Source: Flexistipes sp. (lineage in GTDB: Bacteria > Chrysiogenota > Deferribacteres > Deferribacterales > Flexistipitaceae). From it: DNA of 64,000 nt. The stretch lies in the NCBI RefSeq assembly GCF_036172515.1, contig NZ_JAXKVW010000001.1, forward strand, positions 62,001-126,000. The letters run 5' to 3'. Below are positions 6,220-20,075 of this stretch, piece after piece. Both the position numbers and the translations under genes were made by a program. Under the pieces are notes generated by a model. The model saw only the letters and a list, made by a program, of their open reading frames with translations, searched no databases and was not told the DNA's origin. How positions within the stretch are numbered: the stretch's first letter is position 1; each line of letters opens with the position of its first letter.

Positions 6220-7164
6220 TTATTTTTTCATAAAGGGTGAAACGTAAAATGTTTCGCCCTTTTCTTCAAATGAGCGGACAGAATTTTCAGCTACAAGCTG
6301 TTTCACAACAATATCAAGATTATCCTGTTTCCCGAAAAGCTTATGCAAATCACCATAGCTGCAGGGGCGCATATTTATCAACCGCAAAAGTGTTTTCTTC
6401 AAATCAATTTCAGAACTGATATCCAGCGTTTTGACAAAATTCTCCACAGGCTCCACAACTATTCCAAGTTTCTTCAGGCGCAATGCAGCATTTAAAAGCT
6501 CCACATCATTAAGTTTAACAGCTTCTTTGTAGGCACCTGGGCGGAATGCCGTATTAAGCTGAACTTTATCATAATCACAGCACCTGATAATATCAGCAAG
6601 CAGCTTAAGATGTTCGTCAGAATCATTTATCCCTTTTAACAGCAAAACTTCTATGTAAAGTTTCCCCTCAAATTCCTTTGAAAAAAGAATAAGCGAATCG
6701 ACTACCGCCTGAAGTGAAATGCTTTCAAACGGCCTGTTTATCTCTCTGAATGTATTTTCATCGGCTGCATCAAGGCTGGGAACAACAATGTCAAATTCAT
6801 GCAGCGCTTCTCTTACTTCCGGCTCCGTTATGAGTGTGGAATTTGTAAGAACAGCCAAAGGGTGGTGGATAATTTTCTTGATTTCCAAAGCTATTTCTTT
6901 CAGATCAATATTCAGCGTAGGCTCTCCACTCGCTGTTATAGTAACCACATCCAGATTGTCCCGGAATTTTTCATACTCATTGCTGAATTCCTCAATCAAT
7001 TCATCAACCGGGACAAAATGTCCTCTTTTAACAGTTCTTTTTGTCGTTTTACCCAACTCGCAGTACAGGCAATCCAGAGTACATATTTTTTTCTCTCCTA
7101 TTACATCAACACCAAGAGATCGCCCCAGCCTTCTGGAAGGCACGGGGCCGAATATATAATTCAT
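6220..7164 (-). CDS. Radical SAM protein (COG0731-type) at the end of the molybdenum operon
   Basis: The N-terminus FGPVPSRRLGRSLGVDV is characteristic of the COG0731 radical SAM group, and CTLDCLYC holds the CxxxCxxC ligands of the SAM-binding 4Fe-4S cluster (about residues 28-35). TITASGEPTL and VLTNSTLI are the following SAM-site strands. The last 70 residues resemble a winged helix. The reaction is unknown; distant relatives modify tRNA (Tyw1) or act in molybdopterin synthesis (MoaA). It lies 3 nt after moeA in a molybdenum operon, which suggests a link to that cofactor or to a Mo enzyme, but this is context only. Confidence 0.8.
   Translation of the reverse strand: MNYIFGPVPSRRLGRSLGVDVIGEKKICTLDCLYCELGKTTKRTVKRGHFVPVDELIEEFSNEYEKFRDNLDVVTITASGEPTLNIDLKEIALEIKKIIHHPLAVLTNSTLITEPEVREALHEFDIVVPSLDAADENTFREINRPFESISLQAVVDSLILFSKEFEGKLYIEVLLLKGINDSDEHLKLLADIIRCCDYDKVQLNTAFRPGAYKEAVKLNDVELLNAALRLKKLGIVVEPVENFVKTLDISSEIDLKKTLLRLINMRPCSYGDLHKLFGKQDNLDIVVKQLVAENSVRSFEEKGETFYVSPFMKK
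6232..6262 (+). terminator. Intrinsic terminator of rplY inside the convergent gene
   Basis: AAAGGGTGAAAC (6232-6243) pairs with GTTTCGCCCTTT (6251-6262; one G-T pair) around a 7-nt loop, followed by a short T-rich tail. It stands 15 nt after the rplY stop but within the last codons of the radical SAM gene on the other strand, so the hairpin also encodes protein. Confidence 0.65.
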
Positions 7165-7167
7165 AAT

Positions 7168-8355
7168 TTATAAACCTCTGACCGGTATAATATTCACAAT
7201 ACTGCCCTTTTCAAGACTCCCGACATTTTCATCCAACATTACAAGGCCGTTGACGTTAAAAAAACTCAGAAAATGCGACGTTTTCTGGGAGCCAGGGTCG
7301 TAAGCAACAGGCCCGCCGTCTTCAATTTTTACAATCGCCCTGTTAAAATACAGTGCATTAATTCTTGAGCGCATAGAAGTGCCCAGCTTTCCTTTAATAA
7401 TATTATTCTCAAAATTTTTTATGCCACAGCTTTTACGGACAAAAGGCAAAAGGTACAAAATCAGATTAGTGGCAAATGCAGCCGGGTACCCCGGCATCCC
7501 GAATATTGTACAATTTTCATTCCTTGCGACCATCAGGGGACTTCCCGGTTTTACAGCCGTTTTATTAATGATAATCTCATAATCGTATTCATGTAATATT
7601 TTCTTTACAAAGTCGTACTTGCCCATGGATACGCCGCCGGAGCTCACCAGGATATCATACTCATCTGATCTTTCCAGAACCTCTGCAATGTCTTCCTCGT
7701 CATCATTAAAACGTCCGAGATAATGTATATCGGCAGGTAAATGACTTAGCAGGGAATGTAATATATATCTGTTTGTATTAAACACATGACCTCTTTTGTA
7801 ATCATCCCCCGGCTCAAGTATTTCGTCACCTGTTACAAAAACACCAATTTTGGGCTTTTTATATACTTTTACCTCTTTTTTGCCGGAATAACAGAGAACA
7901 GGGAAAGCAAGCTTATCCAGCAATTTGCCGCACTCGGCAAAAAGAGTATTTTCCGAAAACTCTTCACCTGCCAGATTTATATTAACCCCTTTTTCAGGCT
8001 TTCGATTCAGCAAAATGTGATCATTTTCTTCCACCACGTCCTCCACCCGTACAACCGCATCAGCATTATCAGGGACAATTCCTCCGGTCATTACAAAAAT
8101 GCATTCACCAGCCTGAATATCTGCGTTTCTTAAATCCCCCGGTACTGACTCGCCTTTAATCGTATATTCCATTTTATCCCAGATAACGATTGCATAACCA
8201 TCGACAGCACTTTTTCTACAGTCCGGAAATGGGAAATCCGTATATAAATCCTCAGCCAGAACCCTGTTAAAAGCTTCATTGACAGCTACCCGCTCAGCTT
8301 TAAAATTCAGGGAAATATTGCTTAATATTTTAAGGGCCTCTTCATACTTGTTCAT
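7168..8355 (-). CDS. moeA: Molybdopterin molybdenumtransferase MoeA
   Basis: Inserts molybdate (or tungstate) into adenylylated molybdopterin, the last common step of Moco synthesis. All landmark segments are present: DFPFPDCRKSAVDGYA near the N-terminus, VMTGGIVPDNADAVVRVEDV, then the MoaB/Mog-like core with VFVTGDEIL, SSGGVSMGKYDF and PGSPLMVARNENC, PGYPAA, and the C-terminal domain IV. The start at 8355 (MNKYEEALKIL, 395 residues) follows GGAG with good spacing; an earlier ATG at 8376 would overlap modB by 17 nt and is less likely. It is cotranscribed with modB (4-nt gap). Confidence 0.93.
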   Translation of the reverse strand: MNKYEEALKILSNISLNFKAERVAVNEAFNRVLAEDLYTDFPFPDCRKSAVDGYAIVIWDKMEYTIKGESVPGDLRNADIQAGECIFVMTGGIVPDNADAVVRVEDVVEENDHILLNRKPEKGVNINLAGEEFSENTLFAECGKLLDKLAFPVLCYSGKKEVKVYKKPKIGVFVTGDEILEPGDDYKRGHVFNTNRYILHSLLSHLPADIHYLGRFNDDEEDIAEVLERSDEYDILVSSGGVSMGKYDFVKKILHEYDYEIIINKTAVKPGSPLMVARNENCTIFGMPGYPAAFATNLILYLLPFVRKSCGIKNFENNIIKGKLGTSMRSRINALYFNRAIVKIEDGGPVAYDPGSQKTSHFLSFFNVNGLVMLDENVGSLEKGSIVNIIPVRGL

Positions 8356-8359
8356 TTTC

Positions 8360-9136
8360 TCACTCCGCTTCTGCATTATATACTTTCCTTGAGAAAACCA
8401 TCTTTAAAACTAACACACAGAGGAATGCAAACACAACCACCAAAACACTTGCTGCCAGACCTTTCTGGAAATTACCTTCAGTCATGTTCAGATAAATATT
8501 TATAGGGATATTCGCCGTCATACCTGCAATTCCTCCACCAACCATAAGGGTGGCTCCGAATTCACCGAGGCTCCTCAACCAGCTGAGTATTAATCCGCCC
8601 ATTATTCCGTTAAAAGCGAGTTTAAACGTAGTATCGTAAAAAGATCTGAAGCGGGATGCCCCCAGAGTCATTGCAATTCTTTCATACACAGGGGGTACCA
8701 TTTCAAAAGCACTTTTGGAAGCTTTAACGGTAAAGGGAAAGGAGATAAAAAACTGAGCAGTCACAGCCCCTGTAAATGTAAAAACAATCTCAATCACCCT
8801 TGAAACAGCAGATATGTTAAAAAATGTTAAAAGTAAAACACCAACTATCAGCGGAGGGATAATCAAAGGTATGTCAAAAAGGCTGTCCCATATTCTGCTT
8901 AGCATACTTTTTTTCCTGGCCAGGTAATAGCCTGAAGGTATTCCCAGAACAGCTGAGAAAAAAGTGGCTGTCAGTGAACTTTTCAAACCGAAAACAACAG
9001 CTTCTGTAAAATTATCATCTTTTAAAAGGGATATTATGCTCCTCATATCCGTCAGCAGAAAACCGGCTGAAATTATCAGTAAAATAAAAAGCGCCAGTAT
9101 TAAAACGAAAACGCCGGAAATTGTTGTCAATTTCAT
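8360..9136 (-). CDS. modB: Molybdate ABC transporter permease ModB
   Basis: Inner-membrane channel of the molybdate importer. The 258-residue protein has about five to six hydrophobic segments and the EAA loop that docks on the ATPase, here ERIAMTLGASRFRSF followed by KLAFNGI. The SLGEFGATLMVGGG segment is typical of molybdate and tungstate permeases. Its ATG overlaps the modA stop codon by one base (TAATG), so translation is coupled. Choice between molybdate and tungstate cannot be made from the sequence. Confidence 0.92.
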   Translation of the reverse strand: MKLTTISGVFVLILALFILLIISAGFLLTDMRSIISLLKDDNFTEAVVFGLKSSLTATFFSAVLGIPSGYYLARKKSMLSRIWDSLFDIPLIIPPLIVGVLLLTFFNISAVSRVIEIVFTFTGAVTAQFFISFPFTVKASKSAFEMVPPVYERIAMTLGASRFRSFYDTTFKLAFNGIMGGLILSWLRSLGEFGATLMVGGGIAGMTANIPINIYLNMTEGNFQKGLAASVLVVVFAFLCVLVLKMVFSRKVYNAEAE

Positions 9137-9882
9137 TAATCTGCTCTCTTCATTACTACATTATAACCGTATTCCTCAAATATATGTGAATTGCTTCTTA
9201 CATATTCCAGGAATGATTTGGCAAGCTCCTTATTTTTGCTGTATTTCACCAAAGAAATATAAGCTGTTACTCCGGTATTGTACTCATCGGGAATTTCAAC
9301 ATAATCCAGCTTGTTTAGCTTTGCGCCGGAATCAAACATAAGACCGGCATCAACAGTGCCGCTTAATACATAATTAGTGGTTTGCGATACATTGGTGGGA
9401 TTAATTATTGTATTGTCTTTAATCTTTTTGGCAATGTGTTTTGGCATCTTGGGTTTTATTTTCATCTGGTAAGTTTTGCCTATAGCCATAGTATTCGGAT
9501 TTCCCAGGGCAATCTTTATCCCCGGCTTAAGCAAAGCCTCAAAACTTGCAATCCTGGTTTCAGCTCTTTTTGAAATACCAAAGACAGGTGTTTGGACAAG
9601 CAGTTTCTCCCCATTAAGAACCACATTATCAGAAGCCGCTTTTCTATAATATTTTTCGTTAGCAGATGTATAGATATCACCTTTTTTTGATAAAATAATT
9701 TTATTCAGAATCTGCCCGGAGCCGCCGAGGATCAATACAACCTCATCCTCGTGTGTTTTGTTGTACTGCTTAACAATAGCTTTTCCCGGCTTGGTCATTG
9801 AGGCTGCAAGATACCAGTAAATTTTTTCTGCGTACGCATTAAATGCAAAAAGACACACAACAAGACTTAATAAAAACTTCAT
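9136..9882 (-). CDS. modA: Molybdate-binding periplasmic protein ModA
   Basis: Captures molybdate for ModBC. Residues 1-18 (MKFLLSLVVCLFAFNAYA) form a signal peptide. The mature chain has the ModA order of motifs: LAASMTKPGKAIVKQYNK, LGGSGQILNKII (oxyanion site), GDIYTSANEKYYRKA, ALGNPNTMAIGKTYQ and VDAGLMFDSGAK. No lipobox Cys is visible, so it should be soluble in the periplasm rather than lipid-anchored. It lies between modC (12-nt gap) and modB (1-nt overlap). Confidence 0.92.
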   Translation of the reverse strand: MKFLLSLVVCLFAFNAYAEKIYWYLAASMTKPGKAIVKQYNKTHEDEVVLILGGSGQILNKIILSKKGDIYTSANEKYYRKAASDNVVLNGEKLLVQTPVFGISKRAETRIASFEALLKPGIKIALGNPNTMAIGKTYQMKIKPKMPKHIAKKIKDNTIINPTNVSQTTNYVLSGTVDAGLMFDSGAKLNKLDYVEIPDEYNTGVTAYISLVKYSKNKELAKSFLEYVRSNSHIFEEYGYNVVMKRAD

Positions 9883-9894
9883 ACAAACCTCCTT

Positions 9895-10965
9895 TTATCT
9901 GTCAGTTGTTAAAATTATACTCTGCTGTTTCAGGGAAACACTGATTTTTTTGTCGATACAGAGATCCATTTTTTCACAGGCGTGTACCGGTACAACTGAG
10001 TGTATAGTCAACCCGTTGTCAGATATAATTCTGATAAAATAATCTTTGCCTGCATTTTTCATACTGTTTATACGGCCGGTTACTATATTTTCTTTGAGAC
10101 TGGACTTTATATCGTGATCCGGTCTTATAATCATAACATTTTCCGGTCTGATGCAAATATGAGTGGCGTCTTTCTTTTTGCTTTCCTTATCCAGCGTAAA
10201 CTCATATCCATTGTCGCACAAAACACGGCCACCGGATACCTGATAGGCATTCCATACATTTTTAAACCCCATAAGACGGGCGGATTCAGTATATGCAGGA
10301 TTGCTGTACAACTCTTCCTTTTTACCGAATTCAACAATCCTGCCCCCCTCCACGAGAATCAGGTCTTTTGCAAACAGATAGGCATCACTCAGATTGTGGG
10401 TTATAAATATAGACGAAATATTCAGCTCATCTGAAATATCAGCCACCAATTCCCTTAAGGATTCGGCGGTACTGCTGTCCAGTGCGCTGAAAGGCTCATC
10501 CAGCAGGAGAATCGACGGTTTTAGTACAAGTATGCGCGCCAACGCTACCCGTTGTCTTTGCCCGCCGGATAGTTTTTGGACTGACGAGTCAAGTTTGTCC
10601 GAGATGCCGAGCTTCTCTGCAACCTCACCGATACTATATCCGGCTTTGCTTTTATCCGAAAATTTTAACCCGTATTGTATATTTTCCTTTACATTAAGAT
10701 GGGGGAAAAGTGTATATTCCTGAGGAAGATAGCCCACTTTACGAATATTTACCGGTAAATTTATTTTGCTGCTGCTGTCGAAAAATGTGTTTTCATTCAA
10801 CTTTATATGCCCTTTATCAGGACTGAAAAAACCGGCTATCATCTTGATAATAGAGGATTTGCCGGCACCTGAAGGGCCGAAAAGTACAATTCTGTTAGAA
10901 TCGGCATTGAATTTAAAATTAAATTCAATCCCTTTAAGTCTTTTTATAACGTCTAACTCAAACAT
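9895..10965 (-). CDS. modC: Molybdate ABC transporter ATPase ModC
   Basis: Powers molybdate import. Walker A is FGPSGAGKSS, the Q-loop is in YLPQEYTLFPHL, the ABC signature is LSGGQRQRVALARIL, Walker B is ILLLDEPFSALD and the switch His is in IFITHN. After about residue 240 comes a regulatory TOBE/MOP-like region (RPENVMIIRP to the end), as in ModC and related anion-transport ATPases. The start at 10965 (MFELDVIKRLKG, 356 residues) follows AAGGGTGT; an in-frame ATG at 11019 lies inside the upstream gene and is rejected. The start overlaps the upstream gene by 13 nt. Confidence 0.9.
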   Translation of the reverse strand: MFELDVIKRLKGIEFNFKFNADSNRIVLFGPSGAGKSSIIKMIAGFFSPDKGHIKLNENTFFDSSSKINLPVNIRKVGYLPQEYTLFPHLNVKENIQYGLKFSDKSKAGYSIGEVAEKLGISDKLDSSVQKLSGGQRQRVALARILVLKPSILLLDEPFSALDSSTAESLRELVADISDELNISSIFITHNLSDAYLFAKDLILVEGGRIVEFGKKEELYSNPAYTESARLMGFKNVWNAYQVSGGRVLCDNGYEFTLDKESKKKDATHICIRPENVMIIRPDHDIKSSLKENIVTGRINSMKNAGKDYFIRIISDNGLTIHSVVPVHACEKMDLCIDKKISVSLKQQSIILTTDR

Positions 10966-11984
10966 ACACCCTTCCCGAAAGAACATACCGGATAAACGCA
11001 AACCTTGCATTGATGGCACAGACCGCCGATTGCTTTTGATACAATGTCATTCTTTGTTACTTTTATTTCAGCCAGTATTTGAGGCAGGAAAATATCAAGA
11101 GATGTTATGTTATAAAACAGTGCTGCCGCAGGCACTGCACAGACAGTGGTGCTATTAAGATAGCCGATGGAAAAATTATTGCCCGGCTGTATTGGATTGC
11201 CTTTTTGTACAAATTCAACCCCGGCATTTTCTATCCCCAGCCTTGTTTTATCATCCGGATCCACAGATGTCCCGCCTGTAATTAGTATCAGTCCGCTTTG
11301 TTTTGACTCCTCTTTAACGGCTGAGGCAATCACCGTCTCATCATCCGGGAGTATCCTGCTGTTTATATTGTTTACTCCAAATTTTGTAAGCTTTTGTTTC
11401 AGTTTTTCCGTAAATTTATCCTCAATTTTACCATAATATATCTCATTACCTGTTACTATTATCGATACCCTGCTAATTGTGTATTTTTTTACCGACAGGA
11501 CTGGTTGCTTCATAATTGTTTTCATTTCATCAAATATTGCTTTTTTGCATGTCAGAGGGATAATCCTGAATGCTGCAACTTTTGTGCCTGCAGTAACAGG
11601 GTATTTGTCACTTATAGTCGGCATTGAAGGTATTTCCATACTGTTGATTTTTAACACAGTTTCAGTATCGACAGTAAAAATACCATCGGCAGCGGCAAAG
11701 AAATCTATTTTTCCTTCCTTGGGAGCTTCGCTGTAATAAATATTTTTTCCGGCTGCCAAAGGGGCTATTGCTGTTGCCACATCGTTTTCATGTACTTCAC
11801 CGGCTTCATCTTCTTCAACAAAGACATACTCTTTTCCCAGACGCAGAAGATGCTCAAGATCCTTTTCTTCAATAAAATGCCCCCTGTAAAATGCTACGCC
11901 TTTGAAATTAGTATCCAGATTAACTTCAGTGATATCATAAGCGAGTTTTTCGCCCACAGCATCTTCAACCTTTAATTTTTTCAT
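10953..11984 (-). CDS. Molybdopterin-binding protein with C-terminal cysteine cluster
   Basis: First gene of the molybdenum operon, controlled by the riboswitch just upstream. Residues about 175-310 form a MoaB/Mog/MoeA-type domain (IVTGNEIYYGKIEDKF, ILITGGTSVDPDD, KGNPIQPGNNFSIGYL, CAVPAAAL). The first 165 residues look like an SAF-type substrate-channel region (AGTKVAAFRIIPL). The protein ends in a cysteine-rich motif, GGLCHQCKVCVYPVCSFG, which could bind iron-sulfur or zinc and is absent from classical MoeA or MogA. It may sense or sort molybdenum cofactor, but its reaction is unknown. SD GAGGGTGAA precedes the ATG. Confidence 0.75.
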   Translation of the reverse strand: MKKLKVEDAVGEKLAYDITEVNLDTNFKGVAFYRGHFIEEKDLEHLLRLGKEYVFVEEDEAGEVHENDVATAIAPLAAGKNIYYSEAPKEGKIDFFAAADGIFTVDTETVLKINSMEIPSMPTISDKYPVTAGTKVAAFRIIPLTCKKAIFDEMKTIMKQPVLSVKKYTISRVSIIVTGNEIYYGKIEDKFTEKLKQKLTKFGVNNINSRILPDDETVIASAVKEESKQSGLILITGGTSVDPDDKTRLGIENAGVEFVQKGNPIQPGNNFSIGYLNSTTVCAVPAAALFYNITSLDIFLPQILAEIKVTKNDIVSKAIGGLCHQCKVCVYPVCSFGKGVCLS

Positions 11985-11995
11985 TTCACCCTCAA

Positions 11996-12032
11996 TAAAA
12001 AAGCCGGTTACCTGTAAACAGATAACCGGCTT
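11996..12032 (-). terminator. Riboswitch expression-platform terminator
   Basis: On the minus strand AAGCCGGTTATCTG pairs with CAGGTAACCGGCTT (12032-12001), followed by six or seven T. It lies between the Moco aptamer and the first gene, 12 nt before its ATG, as expected for a transcription-attenuating riboswitch. The aptamer contains ACCGGTT near 12128-12134, complementary to either arm, so an alternative pairing is possible. Confidence 0.8.
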
Positions 12033-12064
12033 AATATTTTATCAATATTATAAAACTACCAGTT

Positions 12065-12181
12065 ATCTCCTTTCCAAATTTCGGGAGGCATGGGCGTTTC
12101 CGTCCAAACCCTGGGGGCTGAACCCAACCGGTTCATAAGTCATATCGTATTTTACCGACTTAGACTTATAAACTCGGAGAT
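12065..12181 (-). ncRNA. Moco riboswitch aptamer
   Basis: Read on the minus strand, the RNA opens with AUCUCC and closes with GGAGAU (P1). The 3' half, CCAGGG - hairpin GGACGGAAACGCC - CCUCCC - seven nt - GGAAAGG, matches the conserved core of the Moco RNA found upstream of moaA and mod genes. A side hairpin AUAAGUC...GACUUAU corresponds to P3, which tungsten-cofactor variants are reported to lack, so molybdenum cofactor is the likelier ligand. It is followed by a terminator and then a molybdopterin and molybdate operon. The match is from memory, not from a covariance search. Confidence 0.85.
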
Positions 12182-12186
12182 AATTT

Positions 12187-12215
12187 TTTTTACAATTTCT
12201 TAAAATAATAGTCAA
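12187..12215 (-). promoter_or_regulatory. Promoter of the molybdenum operon
   Basis: TTGACT (12215-12210) and TAAAAA (12192-12187) on the minus strand are 17 nt apart. Predicted initiation near 12180 falls on the first bases of riboswitch helix P1, so the aptamer begins the transcript. Confidence 0.6.
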
Positions 12216-12227
12216 GCTTTAAAAAGC

Positions 12228-12300
12228 CGTGATGGGTAAAGAGTAATGGGTGAAGATGAGGTTGTTAAAGGTAATTGAGGTATTTGAGGTAATTAGAGGT
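12228..12300. repeat. Degenerate short-repeat tract with 9-mer array
   Basis: Lies in the 370-nt spacer before the Mrp operon. A gtgatgggt/gtaatgggt run is followed by degenerate units of the 9-mer family: GTTGTTAAAG, GTAATTGAG, GTATTTGAG, GTAATTAGAG. The remainder of the spacer (12301-12517) shows no gene; it contains cagcacttagttcttaacacta, resembling text at 1991-2015. Confidence 0.7.
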
Positions 12301-12517
12301 GCAAACGCGCACACAAAATTAAATTTTAGTTGTTTTATGCTAAACATTGAAAATTGTATATGTGGCAGTATGGGTTGAAACTTACACCTTGCTACTCGGC
12401 CCTGTAAACTCAGCACTTAGTTCTTAACACTAATACACCGTTTCACTTTTTTATAAAACCCTTTCAAATTAGTAGGAAATAGCTTTCATCTCAAAATAAA
12501 AAAGCTTTTGAATTTTC

Positions 12518-12554: not shown

Positions 12555-13022
12555 ATGAAATTTATTCTCACATTTATCGCTCTGCTGATTTTCTGGTTTA
12601 TGCTTTCAGGTCACTTTACAGTAATTATTGTGACCTCAGCAGTAATATATTCCCTGATTGCAGCTTACTTTACCTATAATTACTTTATTGAGGATATAAG
12701 TTTAGCCGGAATAAAGCGGATTTTTAAATTTATAGCCTATCTGCCGTGGCTTTTCTGGGAAATTATTGTAGCAAATCTTCAGGTTGCATACATTGTCCTC
12801 AGCCCAAAAATGCCTATATCCCCGGAACTGGTGGAAACGGAAACTGATCTGAAAACCGATTACGGGAAAACAGCTCTTGGCAATTCCATTACCTTAACCC
12901 CCGGTACAGTTACAATCGAAATTGAAAACAGCAAAATACTGGTGCATGCGATAACAAAGGAGCATGCTCAGGATATAAGAAACAAAGATATAGAGAAAAA
13001 AATATTGAGGATAGAAGCTTAA
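12555..13022 (+). CDS. mrpE: Mrp antiporter subunit E
   Basis: Small membrane subunit of the multi-subunit Na+(K+)/H+ antiporter. At 155 residues with two to three N-terminal hydrophobic segments and a cytoplasmic C-terminal half containing GNSITLTPGTVTIEI, the MrpE signature, it is full length. It is the first gene of a tightly packed operon in the order E-F-G-B'-B-C-D, the same order as the antiporter module of archaeal membrane-bound hydrogenases. The start has no Shine-Dalgarno and is predicted leaderless. Confidence 0.9.
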   Translation: MKFILTFIALLIFWFMLSGHFTVIIVTSAVIYSLIAAYFTYNYFIEDISLAGIKRIFKFIAYLPWLFWEIIVANLQVAYIVLSPKMPISPELVETETDLKTDYGKTALGNSITLTPGTVTIEIENSKILVHAITKEHAQDIRNKDIEKKILRIEA

Positions 13023-13024
13023 AA

Positions 13025-13279
13025 ATGTTCAGCTTTATAGCAGTGATAATCCTTATCGGTGTGTTTTGTGTACTCTTCAGGGCTGTAAAAGGGCCCACTA
13101 TATTCGACCGGGTGTTGTCCGTAAACCTGATAGGCACAAAAGCCGTTGTTGTAATCGCGCTAATAGGTTTTATGCATGGCAGGCCTGAGTTTATGGATAT
13201 AGCCCTGACATATGCACTTATTAATTTTATCGGAACAATAGCTTTTCTGAAATATATTGAAAAAAATAAACTGGATTAA
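13025..13279 (+). CDS. mrpF: Mrp antiporter subunit F
   Basis: An 84-residue hydrophobic protein with three membrane segments and the family's KGPTIFDRVLSVNLIGTK segment between the first and second. MrpF is required for assembly and ion exchange of the Mrp complex. It follows mrpE after 2 nt and ends in LKYIEKNKLD, a usual charged tail. Confidence 0.9.
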   Translation: MFSFIAVIILIGVFCVLFRAVKGPTIFDRVLSVNLIGTKAVVVIALIGFMHGRPEFMDIALTYALINFIGTIAFLKYIEKNKLD

Positions 13280-13296
13280 AGGTAAGTATTTGACGG

Positions 13297-13614
13297 ATGA
13301 CTATACTTGATGTGATTACTCTGATTTTACTTCTTGCCGGAAGTTTTTTTATGCTCGTGGCTTCCATAGGAATGATAAGGCTGCCGGATTTTTATACGAG
13401 AATGCACGCCGGCGGCAAAGCGGATACTTTGGGGCAGGGGCTGATTTTTCTTGCTTTGATAATTTATGAAGGATTCACTTTGATAAGCCTTAAAATGTTA
13501 ATAATTTTTGCTTTTATTTTCATAGCAAATCCCACTGCCACACACGCTGTGGCTAAAGCTGCCTATAAAGGCGGATTAAAGATATGGAGCAGAGACAAGA
13601 ATGATAGCAGTTGA
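13297..13614 (+). CDS. mrpG: Mrp antiporter subunit G
   Basis: A 105-residue protein with three hydrophobic segments. The signature RLPDFYTRMHAGGKADTLGQGL (residues about 28-49) and NPTATHAVAKAA identify MrpG. It overlaps the next gene by 14 nt, so translation is probably coupled. Confidence 0.9.
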   Translation: MTILDVITLILLLAGSFFMLVASIGMIRLPDFYTRMHAGGKADTLGQGLIFLALIIYEGFTLISLKMLIIFAFIFIANPTATHAVAKAAYKGGLKIWSRDKNDSS

Positions 13615-14161
13615 TTTTCTTCTCCTTTTACTTTTGGTAATTATTGCTATTGCTGCCATTTCGGCAAAAGATATCCTTACCAGTATAATGCTTCTTGGCA
13701 GCTACAGTCTTGTAATTGCAATGGAGTGGATGTTGCTTAATGCTGTTGATGTCGCTTTTACTGAAGCTGCTGTGGGGGCAGGAATATCAACGATACTGAT
13801 GATAGCGGTTCTTACCAGGGTACCGCGTTTTGAAAAGGAATTGACAGAGCAAAAACATTTTTTCAATCTTTTTAACCGTTCGGAGCTGCTGGCACTGGCC
13901 ACAGTTGTTATAACAGGTGTTCTGCTTATATCGGGAACCTGGGACATGCCCGCTTTCGGAGATCCGAATTCCCCGGCTAATTCCTATCTGTCACCTGAAT
14001 ACATCGAAAGAAGTTACCCTCAGACAGGATCACATAATATTGTCACCGCAGTACTGGCAAGTTACAGGGGTTACGATACACTCGGCGAAACAACCGTTGT
14101 TTTTACTGCTGCCGTCTGTCTGGTCTTATTAATAAGGAGCTATAAAAATAATGAAAGATGA
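13601..14161 (+). CDS. MbhD/MbhE-like antiporter subunit (DUF4040, MrpB N-terminal type)
   Basis: In classical Mrp systems this part is fused to MrpA; here it is a separate 186-residue polypeptide. The first three hydrophobic segments with EAAVGAGISTILMIAVLTRV are the DUF4040/MbhD domain. A further segment (ELLALATVVITGVLLISG), a long periplasmic stretch and a last helix with HNIVTAVLASYRGYDTLGETTVVF match MbhE. It overlaps mrpG and mrpB at its two ends. Confidence 0.82.
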   Translation: MIAVDFLLLLLLVIIAIAAISAKDILTSIMLLGSYSLVIAMEWMLLNAVDVAFTEAAVGAGISTILMIAVLTRVPRFEKELTEQKHFFNLFNRSELLALATVVITGVLLISGTWDMPAFGDPNSPANSYLSPEYIERSYPQTGSHNIVTAVLASYRGYDTLGETTVVFTAAVCLVLLIRSYKNNER

Positions 14162-14573
14162 TGTTATTTTAAGAACCATTACAAAATTTATGCTCCCCTT
14201 TATACAGATTTTTGCATTTTACACACTTGCCCATGGTGAAATCAGTCCGGGCGGTGGATTCCAGGCGGGAGTAATTTTCGGGGCAAGCTTTATACTTATT
14301 GCTCTGATCTTCGGCAAAAGTGAGGCAAGGTCGAAAATGCCTCGATCTCTTAATGACATACTTTTTTCATCCGGTGCTTTTATTTATGCACTTACCGGTT
14401 TGGTGTGCATATTTACCGGCGGTCTTTTTCTTGAATATGGAGAACTCCCCTTTCACTCGGCAAAAGAGGGTAACCACATAGGCATGATTATCATTGAACT
14501 CGGCGTTGCAATAACAGTGGCAGCTGTAATGATGACAATATTTTTCGAAATCGCGGGGAAGGAAGATGATTGA
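14151..14573 (+). CDS. mrpB: Mrp antiporter subunit B
   Basis: A 140-residue protein with four membrane segments. FYTLAHGEISPGGGFQAGVIFGA is the MrpB signature, and the last helix carries ELGVAITVAAVMMTIFFE. It overlaps its neighbours by 11 and 8 nt. MrpB lines the complex beside the NuoK-like subunit and is needed for cation exchange in studied systems. Confidence 0.9.
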   Translation: MKDDVILRTITKFMLPFIQIFAFYTLAHGEISPGGGFQAGVIFGASFILIALIFGKSEARSKMPRSLNDILFSSGAFIYALTGLVCIFTGGLFLEYGELPFHSAKEGNHIGMIIIELGVAITVAAVMMTIFFEIAGKEDD

Positions 14574-14955
14574 GTTCATAGCAGATAAATACAATTTCTG
14601 GATAGCAATAGTACTGATGATGATAGGTTTTTATGCTATTATCGCCAAACACAACCTGGTAAAAAAGGTGATCGGTTTAAACATCTTCCAGACTTCCGTA
14701 TTTCTTTTCTATATTTCCATAAGCAAGGTTAACGGCGGTACTGCACCGATAATATGGCATCCTGAAGAGCACGCCAAAGTTGTTTACGATAACCCGCTTC
14801 CCCACGTACTTATACTCACAGCCATTGTTGTTTCCGTCAGTGTTACAGCGGTGGCTTTGGGTATCATTGTAAAATTATACAAAAATTACGGTAGTATAGA
14901 GGATGATGAAATTAAAATCAGAGAGCTCAAAGAGCCGGAGTTGGATTCCAAATGA
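14566..14955 (+). CDS. mrpC: Mrp antiporter subunit C, NuoK-like
   Basis: A 129-residue, three-helix protein homologous to NuoK of complex I. It has the expected IAKHNLVKKVIGLNIFQTSVFLF stretch, a loop with PHVLILTAIVVSVSVTAVAL, and a charged C-terminal tail. It overlaps mrpD by 4 nt. Confidence 0.9.
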   Translation: MIEFIADKYNFWIAIVLMMIGFYAIIAKHNLVKKVIGLNIFQTSVFLFYISISKVNGGTAPIIWHPEEHAKVVYDNPLPHVLILTAIVVSVSVTAVALGIIVKLYKNYGSIEDDEIKIRELKEPELDSK

Positions 14956-16460
14956 TTGATTTTTTTACCGCACACGCACCTGTTCTTGCTATTGTGTTTT
15001 TTATTTTCGGAGCGTTAACGGCTCCTGTACTGGGAAAAATAAATAATTCCTTATCTTATTACTGTGCTCTCATAACCACTGCTCTTTCTTTTGTGCTGTC
15101 CGTTTACCTTCTTGTTTCGGTTTATAATAACGGCCCCCTTGAATATTTTCTCGGAGGGTGGAAACCACCGTACGGCATCGAATACCGCGCAGATATTCTT
15201 AACAGTTTTATTCTTTCGGTGGTATCCTTTGTATCTTTGCTTTCCATAATTTACGGATACGGAAGTATAAAAGCTGAAATCCATGAAAAAAGGCGTCCTG
15301 CCTTTTACTCCGTTTACCTGCTTTTTATTGGCGGAATGATGGGAATTCTCATAACAAACGACATCTTTAATATGTACGTTTTTCTGGAAATAACGTCATT
15401 GGCAGGATACGCGCTGATCGCTATGGGAAGGACAAGATACTCTTATATGGCAAGTTTCAACTATCTCATTTTGGGTTCAATTGGGGCAACGTTTTTTCTG
15501 ATAGGTATAGGTTATTTATACATGCAGACAGGGACACTTAATCTGACCGATTTAGCCCAACGGCTCCAGGGTCATTTTGATACAAATGTAGTACTTGTGG
15601 CAATAGCATTTATTATTGTCGGACTTATGCTTAAGATGGCCGTTTTCCCACTTCACTTCTGGCTGCCGGATGCTTACACCTATTCCCCTTCTGTGATAAG
15701 CGCAGCAATGGCGGGAACCTCAACAAAAGTGGCCGCCTATCTGCTGATAAGACTTATGTACACAATTTTCGGCATTCAGGCGGGTTTTTCAGGGATAAAC
15801 TTTTCAGGAATTATCATAGTAATCTCCAGTATAACTATTCTTGCAGGTTCAATTATCGCAATATCACAGACCGATCTGAAAAGGATGCTGGCTTTCTCCT
15901 CCATAGGCCAGATAGGTTATGTTCTCATAGGAACGGCAATGGTAAACAAATACGCTTTTGCCGGCGGGCTCCTTCATATATTAAACCATGCAATGATGAA
16001 AACAGCACTTTTCATGGTTGCCGGCGGATTTTTCTACAAGCTTACGTCTACAAAGATAAATAATTTGAAAGGTATGGGGCGGCAGATGCCGTTCACATCG
16101 ACAATGTTTCTCATTCTCTCCCTTTCAATGGTTGGAATACCTCTTACCGTGGGATTTATATCCAAATGGTACATTGTATTGGGAGCGGCTCAGTCGGGTA
16201 ACTGGATAGTCGTGCCGGTAATACTTTTAAGCTCTCTTTTAACGGCCGTATATTTCGGAAGAGTTATTAATACTCTGTTTTTTAAAGAATCAGAACCTTC
16301 CGGTGCAGAAAATTTGCCCGTAAAAATGCCTTATTCCATGATTGGCTCCACAGCGGTGCTTGTTTTCTTATGTGTCTTTTTCGGTGTTTTTGCATACCTG
16401 CCTGCCGAAATATCGCTGAAAGCCGCTGAAAGTATTATAGGGGCTATGCCATGGAAATGA
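14952..16460 (+). CDS. mrpD: Mrp antiporter subunit D, NuoM/NuoN-like
   Basis: A 502-residue proton/cation channel subunit with about 14 membrane helices. Conserved features include MYVFLEITSLAGYALIA (helix-5 Glu), KMAVFPLHFWLPDAYTYSPS (broken-helix Lys), and LKRMLAFSSIGQIGYVLIG with HILNHAMMKTALFM. These charged membrane residues are the proton-path residues of complex-I-type subunits. It overlaps the next large subunit by 10 nt. Confidence 0.92.
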   Translation: MIDFFTAHAPVLAIVFFIFGALTAPVLGKINNSLSYYCALITTALSFVLSVYLLVSVYNNGPLEYFLGGWKPPYGIEYRADILNSFILSVVSFVSLLSIIYGYGSIKAEIHEKRRPAFYSVYLLFIGGMMGILITNDIFNMYVFLEITSLAGYALIAMGRTRYSYMASFNYLILGSIGATFFLIGIGYLYMQTGTLNLTDLAQRLQGHFDTNVVLVAIAFIIVGLMLKMAVFPLHFWLPDAYTYSPSVISAAMAGTSTKVAAYLLIRLMYTIFGIQAGFSGINFSGIIIVISSITILAGSIIAISQTDLKRMLAFSSIGQIGYVLIGTAMVNKYAFAGGLLHILNHAMMKTALFMVAGGFFYKLTSTKINNLKGMGRQMPFTSTMFLILSLSMVGIPLTVGFISKWYIVLGAAQSGNWIVVPVILLSSLLTAVYFGRVINTLFFKESEPSGAENLPVKMPYSMIGSTAVLVFLCVFFGVFAYLPAEISLKAAESIIGAMPWK

Positions 16461-17935
16461 TTCAGTCACTTACGCCCGTATACGCTGTTCTGGTCTCGCT
16501 GATTGCAATCATACCTATCTATTTCTCCCGTCATAACCCCAATCTGCGGGAGTTCTGGACGATTTTTGCAGCAGTAATAAAATTTATAATCGTGTTGTCT
16601 CTGATTCCGCCTTTGATAAAGGGTTACACCGTCGGAATTAATCTTTTTGAAATACTTCCTGGTATCAGCTTCGGTTTCCGGGTGGATTTACTCGGTCTGA
16701 TATTTGCACTTATGGCTTCATTCTTATGGATTCTCACTTCGTTTTATTCCATCGGTTATATGAGAAGCCTGAAAGAGCATAACCAGACATGTTATTTTAT
16801 CTGTTTTGCAGGTTCACTTTCGGCTACAATAGGTGCGGCTTTCGCTTCAAATTTGTTCACAATGTATATATTTTATGAAGCACTGACACTTTTTACTTAT
16901 CCACTGATAGCTCATGAGGGAACAAGCGATGCATTCAGAGGGGCAAGGATATATCTCATTTATCTGCTCGGTACTTCAATAGCATTTCTGCTGCCTGCAA
17001 TAATCGGTACTTATCTTCAGGCAGGCTCCCTTGATTTTGTGAGCAGCGGTCTGCTTTCACAAACGATGACCTCTGAAGCCGGTACATTATTTCTTACTAT
17101 TATGTTTTTTATGTATTTCATAGGTGTTGCAAAAGCAGCGATAATGCCTCTTCATTCATGGCTTCCCAATGCAATGGTTGCCCCCACTCCGGTAAGTGCA
17201 CTTCTGCATGCCGTTGCCGTGGTCAAAATGGGGGTCTTTGTAATCCTGAGAATTGTTCTGAATGTATATGGAATAGACCTGCTGTCCAGGCTGGGAATTG
17301 CAACGATTCTTGTTTACATTGCAAGTATTACGATTATCTTTGCATCGGTTATTGCCTTAAGGCAGGATAATATAAAAGCCAGACTTGCATACTCCACAAT
17401 CAGTCAGCTCTCATACATAGTTGTGGGTGTCTGTCTTCTTACAATATCCGGCATTTCCGGAAGTATTATGCATATGGTAATTCACGCTTTTTCAAAAATA
17501 ACGCTTTTTTTCTGGGCCGGTGCAGTGGCGGTAAGCTTAAAAAAGAAATATGTCAGCCAGCTTAACGGTATCGGCGCAAGGATGCCTGTCAGTATGACAA
17601 TTTTCTCAATCGGGGCACTTTCACTTATTGGTCTGCCGCCTTTTGCAGGATTTTTAAGCAAATGGATGCTCGTATCCGGAGCTTTGGAAGCAGATATGCT
17701 GATTATTGCAGTTGTGTTTGCCACCAGTTCTTTTCTTAACGCGTGCTATTTCCTTCCGATTATTTACACCGCATTCTTCAAAAAGCTTCCCGAAGATGAA
17801 GAAACAACTATAAAAGAGGCTCCGCTTGCAATGCTGATACCTATGAGCATTACGGCAGCTATTACGATCTTGCTCTTTTTTATCCCGGGCAGCTTGACAT
17901 ACATGGTTAATATGATTTTGCAGGGGCTGAACTGA
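16451..17935 (+). CDS. Second NuoL/MrpD-type antiporter subunit
   Basis: A 494-residue paralogue of the previous gene's product with the same fold: MYIFYEALTLFTYPLIA (Glu), KAAIMPLHSWLPNAMVAPTPVSALLHAVAVVKMGVF and RLAYSTISQLSYIVVG. The LLHAVAVVKMG form is closer to NuoL and MrpA than to MrpD, so this may replace the N-terminal part of MrpA. Its stop TGA shares one base with the ATG of the following small gene. Confidence 0.88.
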   Translation: MEMIQSLTPVYAVLVSLIAIIPIYFSRHNPNLREFWTIFAAVIKFIIVLSLIPPLIKGYTVGINLFEILPGISFGFRVDLLGLIFALMASFLWILTSFYSIGYMRSLKEHNQTCYFICFAGSLSATIGAAFASNLFTMYIFYEALTLFTYPLIAHEGTSDAFRGARIYLIYLLGTSIAFLLPAIIGTYLQAGSLDFVSSGLLSQTMTSEAGTLFLTIMFFMYFIGVAKAAIMPLHSWLPNAMVAPTPVSALLHAVAVVKMGVFVILRIVLNVYGIDLLSRLGIATILVYIASITIIFASVIALRQDNIKARLAYSTISQLSYIVVGVCLLTISGISGSIMHMVIHAFSKITLFFWAGAVAVSLKKKYVSQLNGIGARMPVSMTIFSIGALSLIGLPPFAGFLSKWMLVSGALEADMLIIAVVFATSSFLNACYFLPIIYTAFFKKLPEDEETTIKEAPLAMLIPMSITAAITILLFFIPGSLTYMVNMILQGLN

Positions 17936-18081
17936 TGGACAGAGAAAAGCATATAAAAAGCAGTGAGGGTGAAGCACTGGACGTTCTGTCACATGAGCCG
18001 GTTAAAGGTTACAAAACCGCTTTTGGTATTGTTTTTAGTATATCGCTGATATATCTGCTTATTATTTTTATAGTAAGCTGA
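17935..18081 (+). CDS. Small single-pass membrane protein in the Mrp operon
   Basis: A 48-codon ORF beginning MDREKHIKSSEGEALDVLSH. It has a charged N-terminal half and one C-terminal hydrophobic helix (about residues 29-47, AFGIVFSISLIYLLIIFIV). The ATG overlaps the upstream stop (TGATG), and the next gene follows 13 nt later, so position strongly supports translation. No family is recognised. It could be an accessory or assembly subunit of the antiporter. Confidence 0.7.
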   Translation: MDREKHIKSSEGEALDVLSHEPVKGYKTAFGIVFSISLIYLLIIFIVS

Positions 18082-18094
18082 ATAAGGGGAAGTT

Positions 18095-18340
18095 ATGCAG
18101 GACAAACGGGGTATTTTTGATAATCCAAAAAATGTAAAACTTCTGCTGAAAATATTTTTCACATCATGTGTGATTATTTTTCTTACAGATTTAATAATCA
18201 GCAAGCACCCCCACTATGAGTGGGAAAAATGGACCGGATTTTATGCGGTTTTCGGCTTTGTGGCATGCGTCATTCTTGTCTTGGTGGCAAAGTATGTTTT
18301 AAGACCGATAGTTATGAGAAAAGAGGATTACTATGATTAA
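18095..18340 (+). CDS. Small two-helix membrane protein in the Mrp operon
   Basis: An 81-residue protein with two hydrophobic segments (about 20-36 and 48-68) separated by a short HPHYEWEKWTGFYA loop, and a charged tail RPIVMRKEDYYD. The ATG follows GGGGAAG, and its 3' end overlaps the next large subunit by 8 nt. No named family is recognised. Short proteins with a HPHYEWEKW-like loop may be accessory subunits of Mrp-like complexes. Confidence 0.8.
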   Translation: MQDKRGIFDNPKNVKLLLKIFFTSCVIIFLTDLIISKHPHYEWEKWTGFYAVFGFVACVILVLVAKYVLRPIVMRKEDYYD

Positions 18341-20075
18341 TGTTCTCCCTCCCGCTTTTATTTTCATAATTGCCGGGCTTATAGTGCCGTTTTTAAAAGG
18401 CAGGGCAAGGAATGTCTTTTTAACCGCAGTGCCGATTGTGACTTTTATCAATCTTATTAGTCTGCCCGAAGGTATTTCCATGGGGTATTCGTATTTCAGC
18501 TATGATATGCATTTATTAAGGGTGGACGAACTTTCTCTGATATTCGGATACATTTTTCTGATAATTTCTTTTGCTTCATTTATTTACGGCTACCATGTGA
18601 AAAACAACTGGGAATTCACCGCCGGTCTCTTTTACGCCGGAGGTGCCCTGGGTGTAATTTTTGCCGCCGACCTCGTTACCCTTTATTTTTTCTGGGAATT
18701 AATGACTGTTGCTTCCGTATTCCTTATCTGGGCGAGGAATACTGATAAGTCTATAGGCTCGGGAATGCGCTATTTTCTTTTTCATCTTGTGGGCGGTGTT
18801 ATTTTACTTATCGGAATCATTTTGCAGATCAAACAAACAGGAAGTGCAGCTTTTAATCATATGGAGCTCTCCTCTTTAAGCACTTACCTTATCTTTATCG
18901 GTTTTGGAATAAACTGTGCATGGCCTCTTCTTCATACATGGCTTGTGGATTCTTACCCCGAAGCCACAATTCTCGGAACAGTTTTACTAAGTACCTTTAC
19001 CACTAAAACAGCAATCTACACACTTGTCAGAGGTTTTGCTGGAACTGAAATACTGATATTTATAGGCGCTGCAATGGCAGCTTTCCCTATATTTTATGCC
19101 GTTATTGAAAACGATTTACGCAGGGTTCTTGCCTACAGTCTCATCAACCAGCTCGGATTTATGGTGGTGGGTATCGGTATCGGGACACCTCTGGCACTGA
19201 ACGGCACTGTTGCTCACGTGTTTGCCGATATACTTTTTAAATCTCTGCTTTTTATGGGAATGGGAGCTGTCCTTTACAGAACGGGCAAAATAAAGGCAAC
19301 GGAAATAGGTGGTTTGTATAAATATATGCCGTATACCGCAGCCTTTACCATTGTAGGAGCTGCTTCCATATCAGCTTTTCCTCTTTTCAGTGCATTTGCC
19401 ACAAAATCAATGGTGATGTCTGCAGCTGCCGGCAACCACTATACGATAACCTGGCTCATTCTGCTATTTGCATCCGCTGGTGTCTTTCATCACGCCGGAA
19501 TTAAAATTCCCTTTTTCGCTTTTTTCAGCCATGACAGCGGACTCAGACCAAAAGAAGCCCCGCTAAGCATGCTTATAGGCATGGGTATTCTTGCATTTTT
19601 AAACATATTTATCGGCATTTTTCCCGGATTCTTATATCAAATTCTCCCATTTGATGCCAATTATGTCCCGTACACTACTGCACACGTTGTAAGTCAGCTT
19701 CAACTTCTTCTCTTTTCAGCACTGGCATTCACACTTCTTCTCCGCTCCGGCATATACCCTCCGGAAATAAGATCGGTCAACCTGGATGCCGACCTTGTCT
19801 ACAGAAAAGTTTTGGGAGGTTTTATTAAGTTTGAAGATAAGATTATTTTACCCGCCCTGGACAATGTGAAATATCTTTTCTTCAATTTTATGCCCTCACT
19901 ACTTGGAACACTCACTTCCAATCCCTACAAGCTGGTCAATCAAATTATTACCGGCGGAGTAAAAGAAGAAAAGAGAGGGAGTGAAGCAGAAAGTTATTTC
20001 TGGCTGATCGGATGGTCTGTATTTATTATTACTGTATTTTTGGCCATATATCTTCTGGCTTTTATGCACTTCTGA
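18333..20075 (+). CDS. Third NuoL-type antiporter subunit
   Basis: A 580-residue protein of the proton-conducting membrane transporter family. It keeps LYFFWELMTVASVFLIW (helix-5 Glu), WPLLHTWLVDSYPEATILGTVLLSTFTTKTAIY, and LRRVLAYSLINQLGFMVVGIG. It has the PLFSAFATKSM loop and an extra C-terminal tail with an amphipathic region (SVNLDADLVYRKVLGGF) and a last membrane helix, resembling the lateral-helix extension of NuoL or the MrpA tail. It ends the operon; the hairpin at 20138-20154 lies beyond it. Confidence 0.88.
   Translation: MINVLPPAFIFIIAGLIVPFLKGRARNVFLTAVPIVTFINLISLPEGISMGYSYFSYDMHLLRVDELSLIFGYIFLIISFASFIYGYHVKNNWEFTAGLFYAGGALGVIFAADLVTLYFFWELMTVASVFLIWARNTDKSIGSGMRYFLFHLVGGVILLIGIILQIKQTGSAAFNHMELSSLSTYLIFIGFGINCAWPLLHTWLVDSYPEATILGTVLLSTFTTKTAIYTLVRGFAGTEILIFIGAAMAAFPIFYAVIENDLRRVLAYSLINQLGFMVVGIGIGTPLALNGTVAHVFADILFKSLLFMGMGAVLYRTGKIKATEIGGLYKYMPYTAAFTIVGAASISAFPLFSAFATKSMVMSAAAGNHYTITWLILLFASAGVFHHAGIKIPFFAFFSHDSGLRPKEAPLSMLIGMGILAFLNIFIGIFPGFLYQILPFDANYVPYTTAHVVSQLQLLLFSALAFTLLLRSGIYPPEIRSVNLDADLVYRKVLGGFIKFEDKIILPALDNVKYLFFNFMPSLLGTLTSNPYKLVNQIITGGVKEEKRGSEAESYFWLIGWSVFIITVFLAIYLLAFMHF

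Follow-up and report, generated by a model that had tools for sequence, protein, structure and literature searches.

The founding paper of the Rfam family RF01055 (Regulski et al. 2008; PMC2408646) described the Moco RNA motif, whose aptamer has helices P1-P5 including a P3 hairpin, a GAAA tetraloop with its receptor, and a molybdate/molybdopterin gene context; terminator-type expression platforms were already noted there. Because Moco is unstable, that paper did not demonstrate direct binding of the ligand, even with the E. coli Moco RNA (PMC2408646). The E. coli moaA riboswitch has a P3-containing aptamer with an expected OFF response to Moco. A translational mode of action was proposed for it (PMC2408646), and later work reported 3' ends that depend on Rho (PMC7815308) and modulation of termination (PMC12121620). 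In the window, by which we mean the whole 64-kb stretch of Flexistipes DNA analyzed, we found an element that shares the full-length aptamer and gene context of the class and would be expected to share the OFF response of moaA, but unlike moaA it has an intrinsic terminator and different downstream genes. Relative to the class as described, a specific antiterminator between the P1 3' strand and the terminator 5' arm is proposed here, the first gene encodes a MoCF protein with a Cys motif, and the host phylum, Deferribacterota, is absent from the 2008 list of groups. A literature search found no description of this Moco element in Flexistipes.

We consider it very probable that this P3-containing, Moco-class riboswitch controls premature termination ahead of a mod/moe operon by an exchange of the P1 3' strand with the terminator arm. 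This adds a little to a known class, namely the detail of the switching helix, a conserved link to a protein with a Cys tail, and the occurrence in Deferribacterota. The described range of the class is extended to a phylum of anaerobes that apparently uses both molybdenum and tungsten. Since direct binding of the ligand has been hard to show for this class, a termination switch that is compact and open to testing is also useful.

Scanning the whole window with Rfam release 15 (cmscan) gave RF01055 (Moco/molybdenum riboswitch) as the only match above threshold, at 12191-12051 of the minus strand. It scored 90.4 bits (E 8.2e-21), where the family's gathering score is 36 bits, and its alignment spans the whole model (positions 1-135 of 135). 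Both outcomes on which the initial annotation had made its Moco assignment depend, the Infernal score with the Moco_RNA model and covariation in relatives, came out in its favor. The conserved core that it had read from the sequence is present on the minus strand (CAGGG, CCUCCC, and GGAAAGG), together with the GAAA tetraloop, and its P3-like hairpin corresponds to P3 of the model in the Rfam alignment. The interval proposed for the block, 12065-12215, stops short of the terminator and holds the promoter with the greater part of the aptamer. Between 11900 and 12400, Rfam also matched trpB, sR52, the L20 leader, and others, but each of these fell short of its gathering score; they mostly reflect the terminator hairpin and were rejected.

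Model alignment, consensus folding, and covariation all recovered the P1-P5 architecture with its conserved junction. Both the GAAA tetraloop in P4 and the UAAG/UAUG receptor in P2 are present, and GAAA is invariant in relatives. P3 can adopt either of two registers and is ambiguous in this respect; the window forms it from GGUUG/CAGCC, and the relatives G009 and G016 from GGGC/GCCC. The 202-nt leader folds with -70.1 kcal/mol compared to a mean of -44.6 kcal/mol for dinucleotide shuffles (z = -6.2, 0/200 shuffles). The element is an ordinary, well-formed Moco-class riboswitch of a known RNA class. Its features, along with those of the operon, are collected in Table 1.

Table 1. Coordinates of the riboswitch, its expression platform, the downstream genes, and tungsten-related genes elsewhere in the genome
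Feature	Coordinates	Strand	Evidence
-35 box TTGACT	12210..12215	-	sequence; conserved spacing in relatives; inferred promoter
-10 box TAAAAA, 17 nt from -35 box	12187..12192	-	sequence; TAAAAA/TAGAAA in close relatives
Moco riboswitch aptamer (RF01055)	12051..12191	-	cmscan, full-length model match
P1 5' strand UUAUCUCC	12176..12183	-	Rfam alignment, fold, alifold
P2 with UAAG/UAUG tetraloop-receptor bulge	12131..12173	-	Rfam alignment; covariation
ACCGGTT segment, switch strand of the initial annotation	12126..12132	-	part of P2/P3 core
P3 hairpin, two alternative registers	12114..12129	-	Rfam alignment; possible in 8/8 phylum leaders
P4 with GAAA tetraloop (12100-12097)	12086..12111	-	Rfam alignment; covariation
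Putative antiterminator strand AGAUAACUGG (P1 3' strand plus 3' flank)	12059..12068	-	pairing with terminator 5' arm
Terminator 5' arm CCGGUUAUCU, common to antiterminator and terminator	12020..12029	-	folding, pairing ranks
Intrinsic terminator hairpin, 14 pairs, then U-run to 11997	12001..12032	-	terminator scan
First gene, MoCF_biosynth (MoeA-like), C-terminal CxxCxxCx4C	10953..11984	-	PF00994 E 2.6e-19
modC-like ABC ATPase	9895..11019	-	PF00005; TIGR02142 212 bits, WtpC 217 bits, both below cut-offs
modA, molybdate-binding protein	9136..9882	-	TIGR01256 92.6 bits, above cut-off of 62.5
modB-like permease	8360..9136	-	TIGR01581 176 bits, TIGR02141 159 bits, both below cut-offs
moeA	7168..8376	-	MoeA_N, MoCF_biosynth, MoeA_C all above cut-off
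Radical-SAM protein, last gene of run	6220..7164	-	PF04055 E 1.1e-16
AFOR_N proteins / TupB-like permease, own genome	C6:97832-98431, C1:14976-15572, C8:58979-59650		

The genome itself (2.47 Mb, 31 contigs) carries one RF01055 copy, and no second Moco RNA was found in the whole 2.47 Mb. Among 51 phylum genomes searched, eight have the element. Three belong to the same genus as the window, counting its own genome (this genus includes the assembly 'Deferribacteraceae bacterium UBA1873'), two are G005 and G012, two are G009 and G016, and one is G021. The G012 aptamer runs off the end of its contig, and the seven complete leaders were aligned; the relatives available for comparison are few and some are closely related. 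Their consensus fold recovers P1, P2, P3, P4, P5, and the terminator, with 97.2% of cells paired on the consensus structure. We found compensatory changes on both sides in 17 pairs compared to a shuffle mean of 7.7 (0/500 shuffles as high), including 8/11 main P2 pairs and 4/11 P4 pairs, and a covariation score of 0.271 vs 0.148 in shuffles. Sliding the partners by 1-3 columns lowered pairing to 35-45%; this control is biased toward the structure, which was derived from the same alignment, but the independent Rfam model agrees with it.

Upstream of the aptamer, TTGACT-17-TAAAAA matches nine of 12 consensus bases, with a weak -10 box that lacks the final T and, because of this, is missing from the list of the mechanical promoter scan. 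TTGAC[TA]-17-TA[AG]AAA is kept in the same-genus leaders and in G005, TTGAC[TA] is kept at the same spacing in four relatives, and G021 has TTGACT-17-TATATA at a nearly equal distance from P1. G002 and G005 keep the -35 box along with the spacer, while their sequence farther upstream has diverged; no comparable promoter was evident in the G009 and G016 leaders. Hence, the predicted promoter called in the initial annotation is conserved in close relatives, G005, and G021, though its -10 box is weak. Transcription would begin near 12180-12183, at or next to P1, which is reasonable because the promoter hexamers and their 17-nt spacing are conserved in relatives.

Downstream of the aptamer, the terminator scan gave a single site, 12032-12001 on the minus strand, and the gap between the end of its U-run and the ATG (11984) is 12 nt, exactly as first annotated. 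The hairpin is conserved in 8/8 phylum leaders, with 96.9% of cells paired in relatives. This bears on whether regulation is mainly translational, with the ribosome binding site hidden by the RNA, as proposed for E. coli moaA, where the ribosome binding site would be placed in P1 (PMC2408646). Here the ribosome binding site (near 11993) lies about 70 nt past P1 with a strong terminator in between, and since all eight phylum leaders keep that terminator, we regard a mainly translational mode as extremely improbable.

We found that the P1 3' strand with its 3' flank, AGAUAACUGG (12068-12059), can pair with CCGGUUAUCU of the terminator 5' arm (12029-12020) over 10 bp with one G-U (-15.6 kcal/mol). 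In nascent-transcript folding, which reflects equilibrium only, without tertiary contacts or kinetics, P1 kept a probability of about 1 (0.99) until the terminator 5' arm was transcribed. As the transcript end moved from about 12022 to 12007, P1 fell from 0.99 to about 0 and the antiterminator reached 1.00 (by 12019-12007); once the terminator 3' arm was complete, the terminator and P1 came back. Hence, the helices are mutually exclusive by computation. The exchange from P1 to antiterminator was found in the window and in all six relatives with complete leaders, and G012, whose 5' end lies beyond its contig, formed the antiterminator and then the terminator. In G021 (locus L007), the antiterminator, once favored, did not give way to P1 and the terminator at any later length that was folded; therefore, ligand binding there would have to pay for termination.

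Equivalent pairing was found in all relatives, with antiterminator duplexes of -10.0 to -15.6 kcal/mol and shuffle p values from below 0.001 to 0.06 across leaders; G009, G016, and G012 form a weaker, bulged duplex (p = 0.02-0.06). Against a background of terminator-like hairpins found mechanically in 380 kb of the same genome, pairing of the terminator 5' arm with the P1 strand ranked 2/127 with the strict set and 2/406 with the loose set. A single hairpin elsewhere pairs with the P1 strand a little more strongly (-17.0 vs -16.4/-15.6 kcal/mol); its sequence shows nothing obviously leader-like, and we tentatively took the match to be due to chance. In addition, nothing in the aptamer pairs with the CUGG on the 3' side of P1, but 8/8 phylum leaders keep it and RF01055 matches from other phyla do not, as expected if CUGG serves the switch rather than the aptamer.

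The initial annotation had instead assigned the switching role to ACCGGTT (12132-12126), which would couple ligand to termination by pairing with a terminator arm. In isolation such a duplex is possible, AACCGGUU with AGCCGGUU, up to 8 bp and -11.9 kcal/mol in the window, but in nascent folds its probability was 0.00 at every window transcript length, and in the relatives it never rose above a transient 0.17. The pairing is also weakened in G021 (-7.8 kcal/mol) and G012 (-6.5 kcal/mol), and the segment lies in the conserved P2/P3 core, which already explains its sequence. A switch through ACCGGTT is therefore very unlikely, and the P1 3' strand is, by folding, the better-supported antiterminator.

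With the P1 3' strand as antiterminator, the RNA would start at or next to P1 and, with Moco scarce, AGAUAACUGG would leave P1 and pair with CCGGUUAUCU once this arm is transcribed, so that the terminator would be blocked and the operon expressed. With Moco bound, P1 would be held closed, the CCGGUUAUCU arm would stay free, the terminator at 12032-12001 would form, and transcription would stop about 12 nt before the start codon, which makes an OFF switch. Closing of P1 by the ligand, formation of a terminator, and shut-off of the operon are usual riboswitch logic. For ligand binding, the OFF direction, and the timing of folding, we infer from the RNA class and the anatomy of the leader. On these grounds, the riboswitch most likely responds to plentiful cofactor by shutting off an operon for molybdate uptake and cofactor assembly.

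The downstream run agrees with this role, in that the element lies upstream of molybdenum-uptake and Moco genes (MoCF protein, modC, modA, modB, and moeA); hence, Pfam/NCBIfam domain matches bear out the earlier reading of an operon joining molybdate import to molybdopterin genes. Because they overlap or have short gaps, we infer that the six genes are co-transcribed. The listed GTG start of the modC-like gene is probably too early, with an ATG near 10965 as the likely start, and the radical-SAM protein shows a weak MoaA likeness, far below the MoaA cut-off.

The AFOR (aldehyde ferredoxin oxidoreductase) family is typically tungsten-dependent, and two AFOR_N proteins are encoded in this genome, so its host probably uses both molybdenum and tungsten. 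We therefore weighed whether the ligand of this RNA is the tungsten cofactor (Tuco), alone or along with Moco; that ModC and ModB score below molybdate-specific cut-offs would fit such a sensor as well. However, ModA scores above the cut-off of the molybdate model, the genome encodes a TupB-like tungstate permease at a separate locus (269 bits, below the strict cut-off), and there are 13 molybdopterin oxidoreductase (PF00384) matches in the genome. Moreover, P3 is present here, and P3-containing RNAs go with Moco genes while those lacking P3 go with Tuco (PMC2408646). Hence, sensing of Tuco is unlikely, and Moco remains our preferred ligand.

The same first gene follows the element in all eight phylum carriers. 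Its protein has PF00994 in mid-sequence and ends in GGLCxxCxxCxYPxCxFG, with the four tail Cys invariant in 17 sequences (Deferribacterota, Clostridia, Fusobacteria, and Desulfobacula). This protein had been called an unusual Cys-cluster protein at the start of the operon; the cluster and the position stand, but within a broad family of MoCF-domain proteins it is an ordinary member. No dedicated model in Pfam or NCBIfam matched its family (homologues L020-L057), so a conserved Mo-cofactor protein family without such a model is pointed out here. The predicted structure is confident (mean pLDDT 86.9), the Cys tail excepted, and a PDB fold search gave MoeA and gephyrin E as the best matches with a poor global fit (TM ~0.36).

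The first gene also occurs without an RF01055 match, in 12 genomes of family f5 (L043-L046, L048-L055) and two of the more distant family f10 (L056-L057). Because a permissive Rfam search of these 14 loci found no divergent Moco RNA upstream of the gene, the switch appears to be absent there rather than missed. A broader proposal is that Deferribacterota share a distinct lineage of terminating Moco riboswitches with a P1 3' strand adapted to form a 10-bp antiterminator. Their constant partner, the MoeA-like protein with the invariant CxxCxxCx4C tail, would then be an unrecognized factor of the same feedback loop that inserts Moco, carries it, or controls its quality; we hold the proposal as a whole to be speculative and rather unlikely.

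A related arrangement is found in Clostridium paraputrificum (L022, NZ_UAWH01000014.1), where an RF01055 match of 73.6 bits precedes moeA and molybdate-transport genes, with a first-gene homologue in the same run. At 1512-1753 of this locus, a terminator follows the Moco RNA, and its 5' arm CUUAUU can pair with the P1 3' strand AAUAAG, which suggests from sequence that the same switch design is used elsewhere. The gene order differs from that of the window in that moeA comes first and the first-gene homologue, still within the Moco operon, lies about 4.3 kb downstream. In Desulfobacula (L031), the homologue follows xanthine-dehydrogenase-type genes.

On the other side of the riboswitch promoter, 12216-12330 of the window is purine-rich and loosely repetitive (GGGTAA/GAGGTAATT-like units) and separates it from a divergent operon. 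The divergent genes (12555-20075, plus strand) have translations that read as a Mrp-type Na+/H+ antiporter/complex-I-like set.
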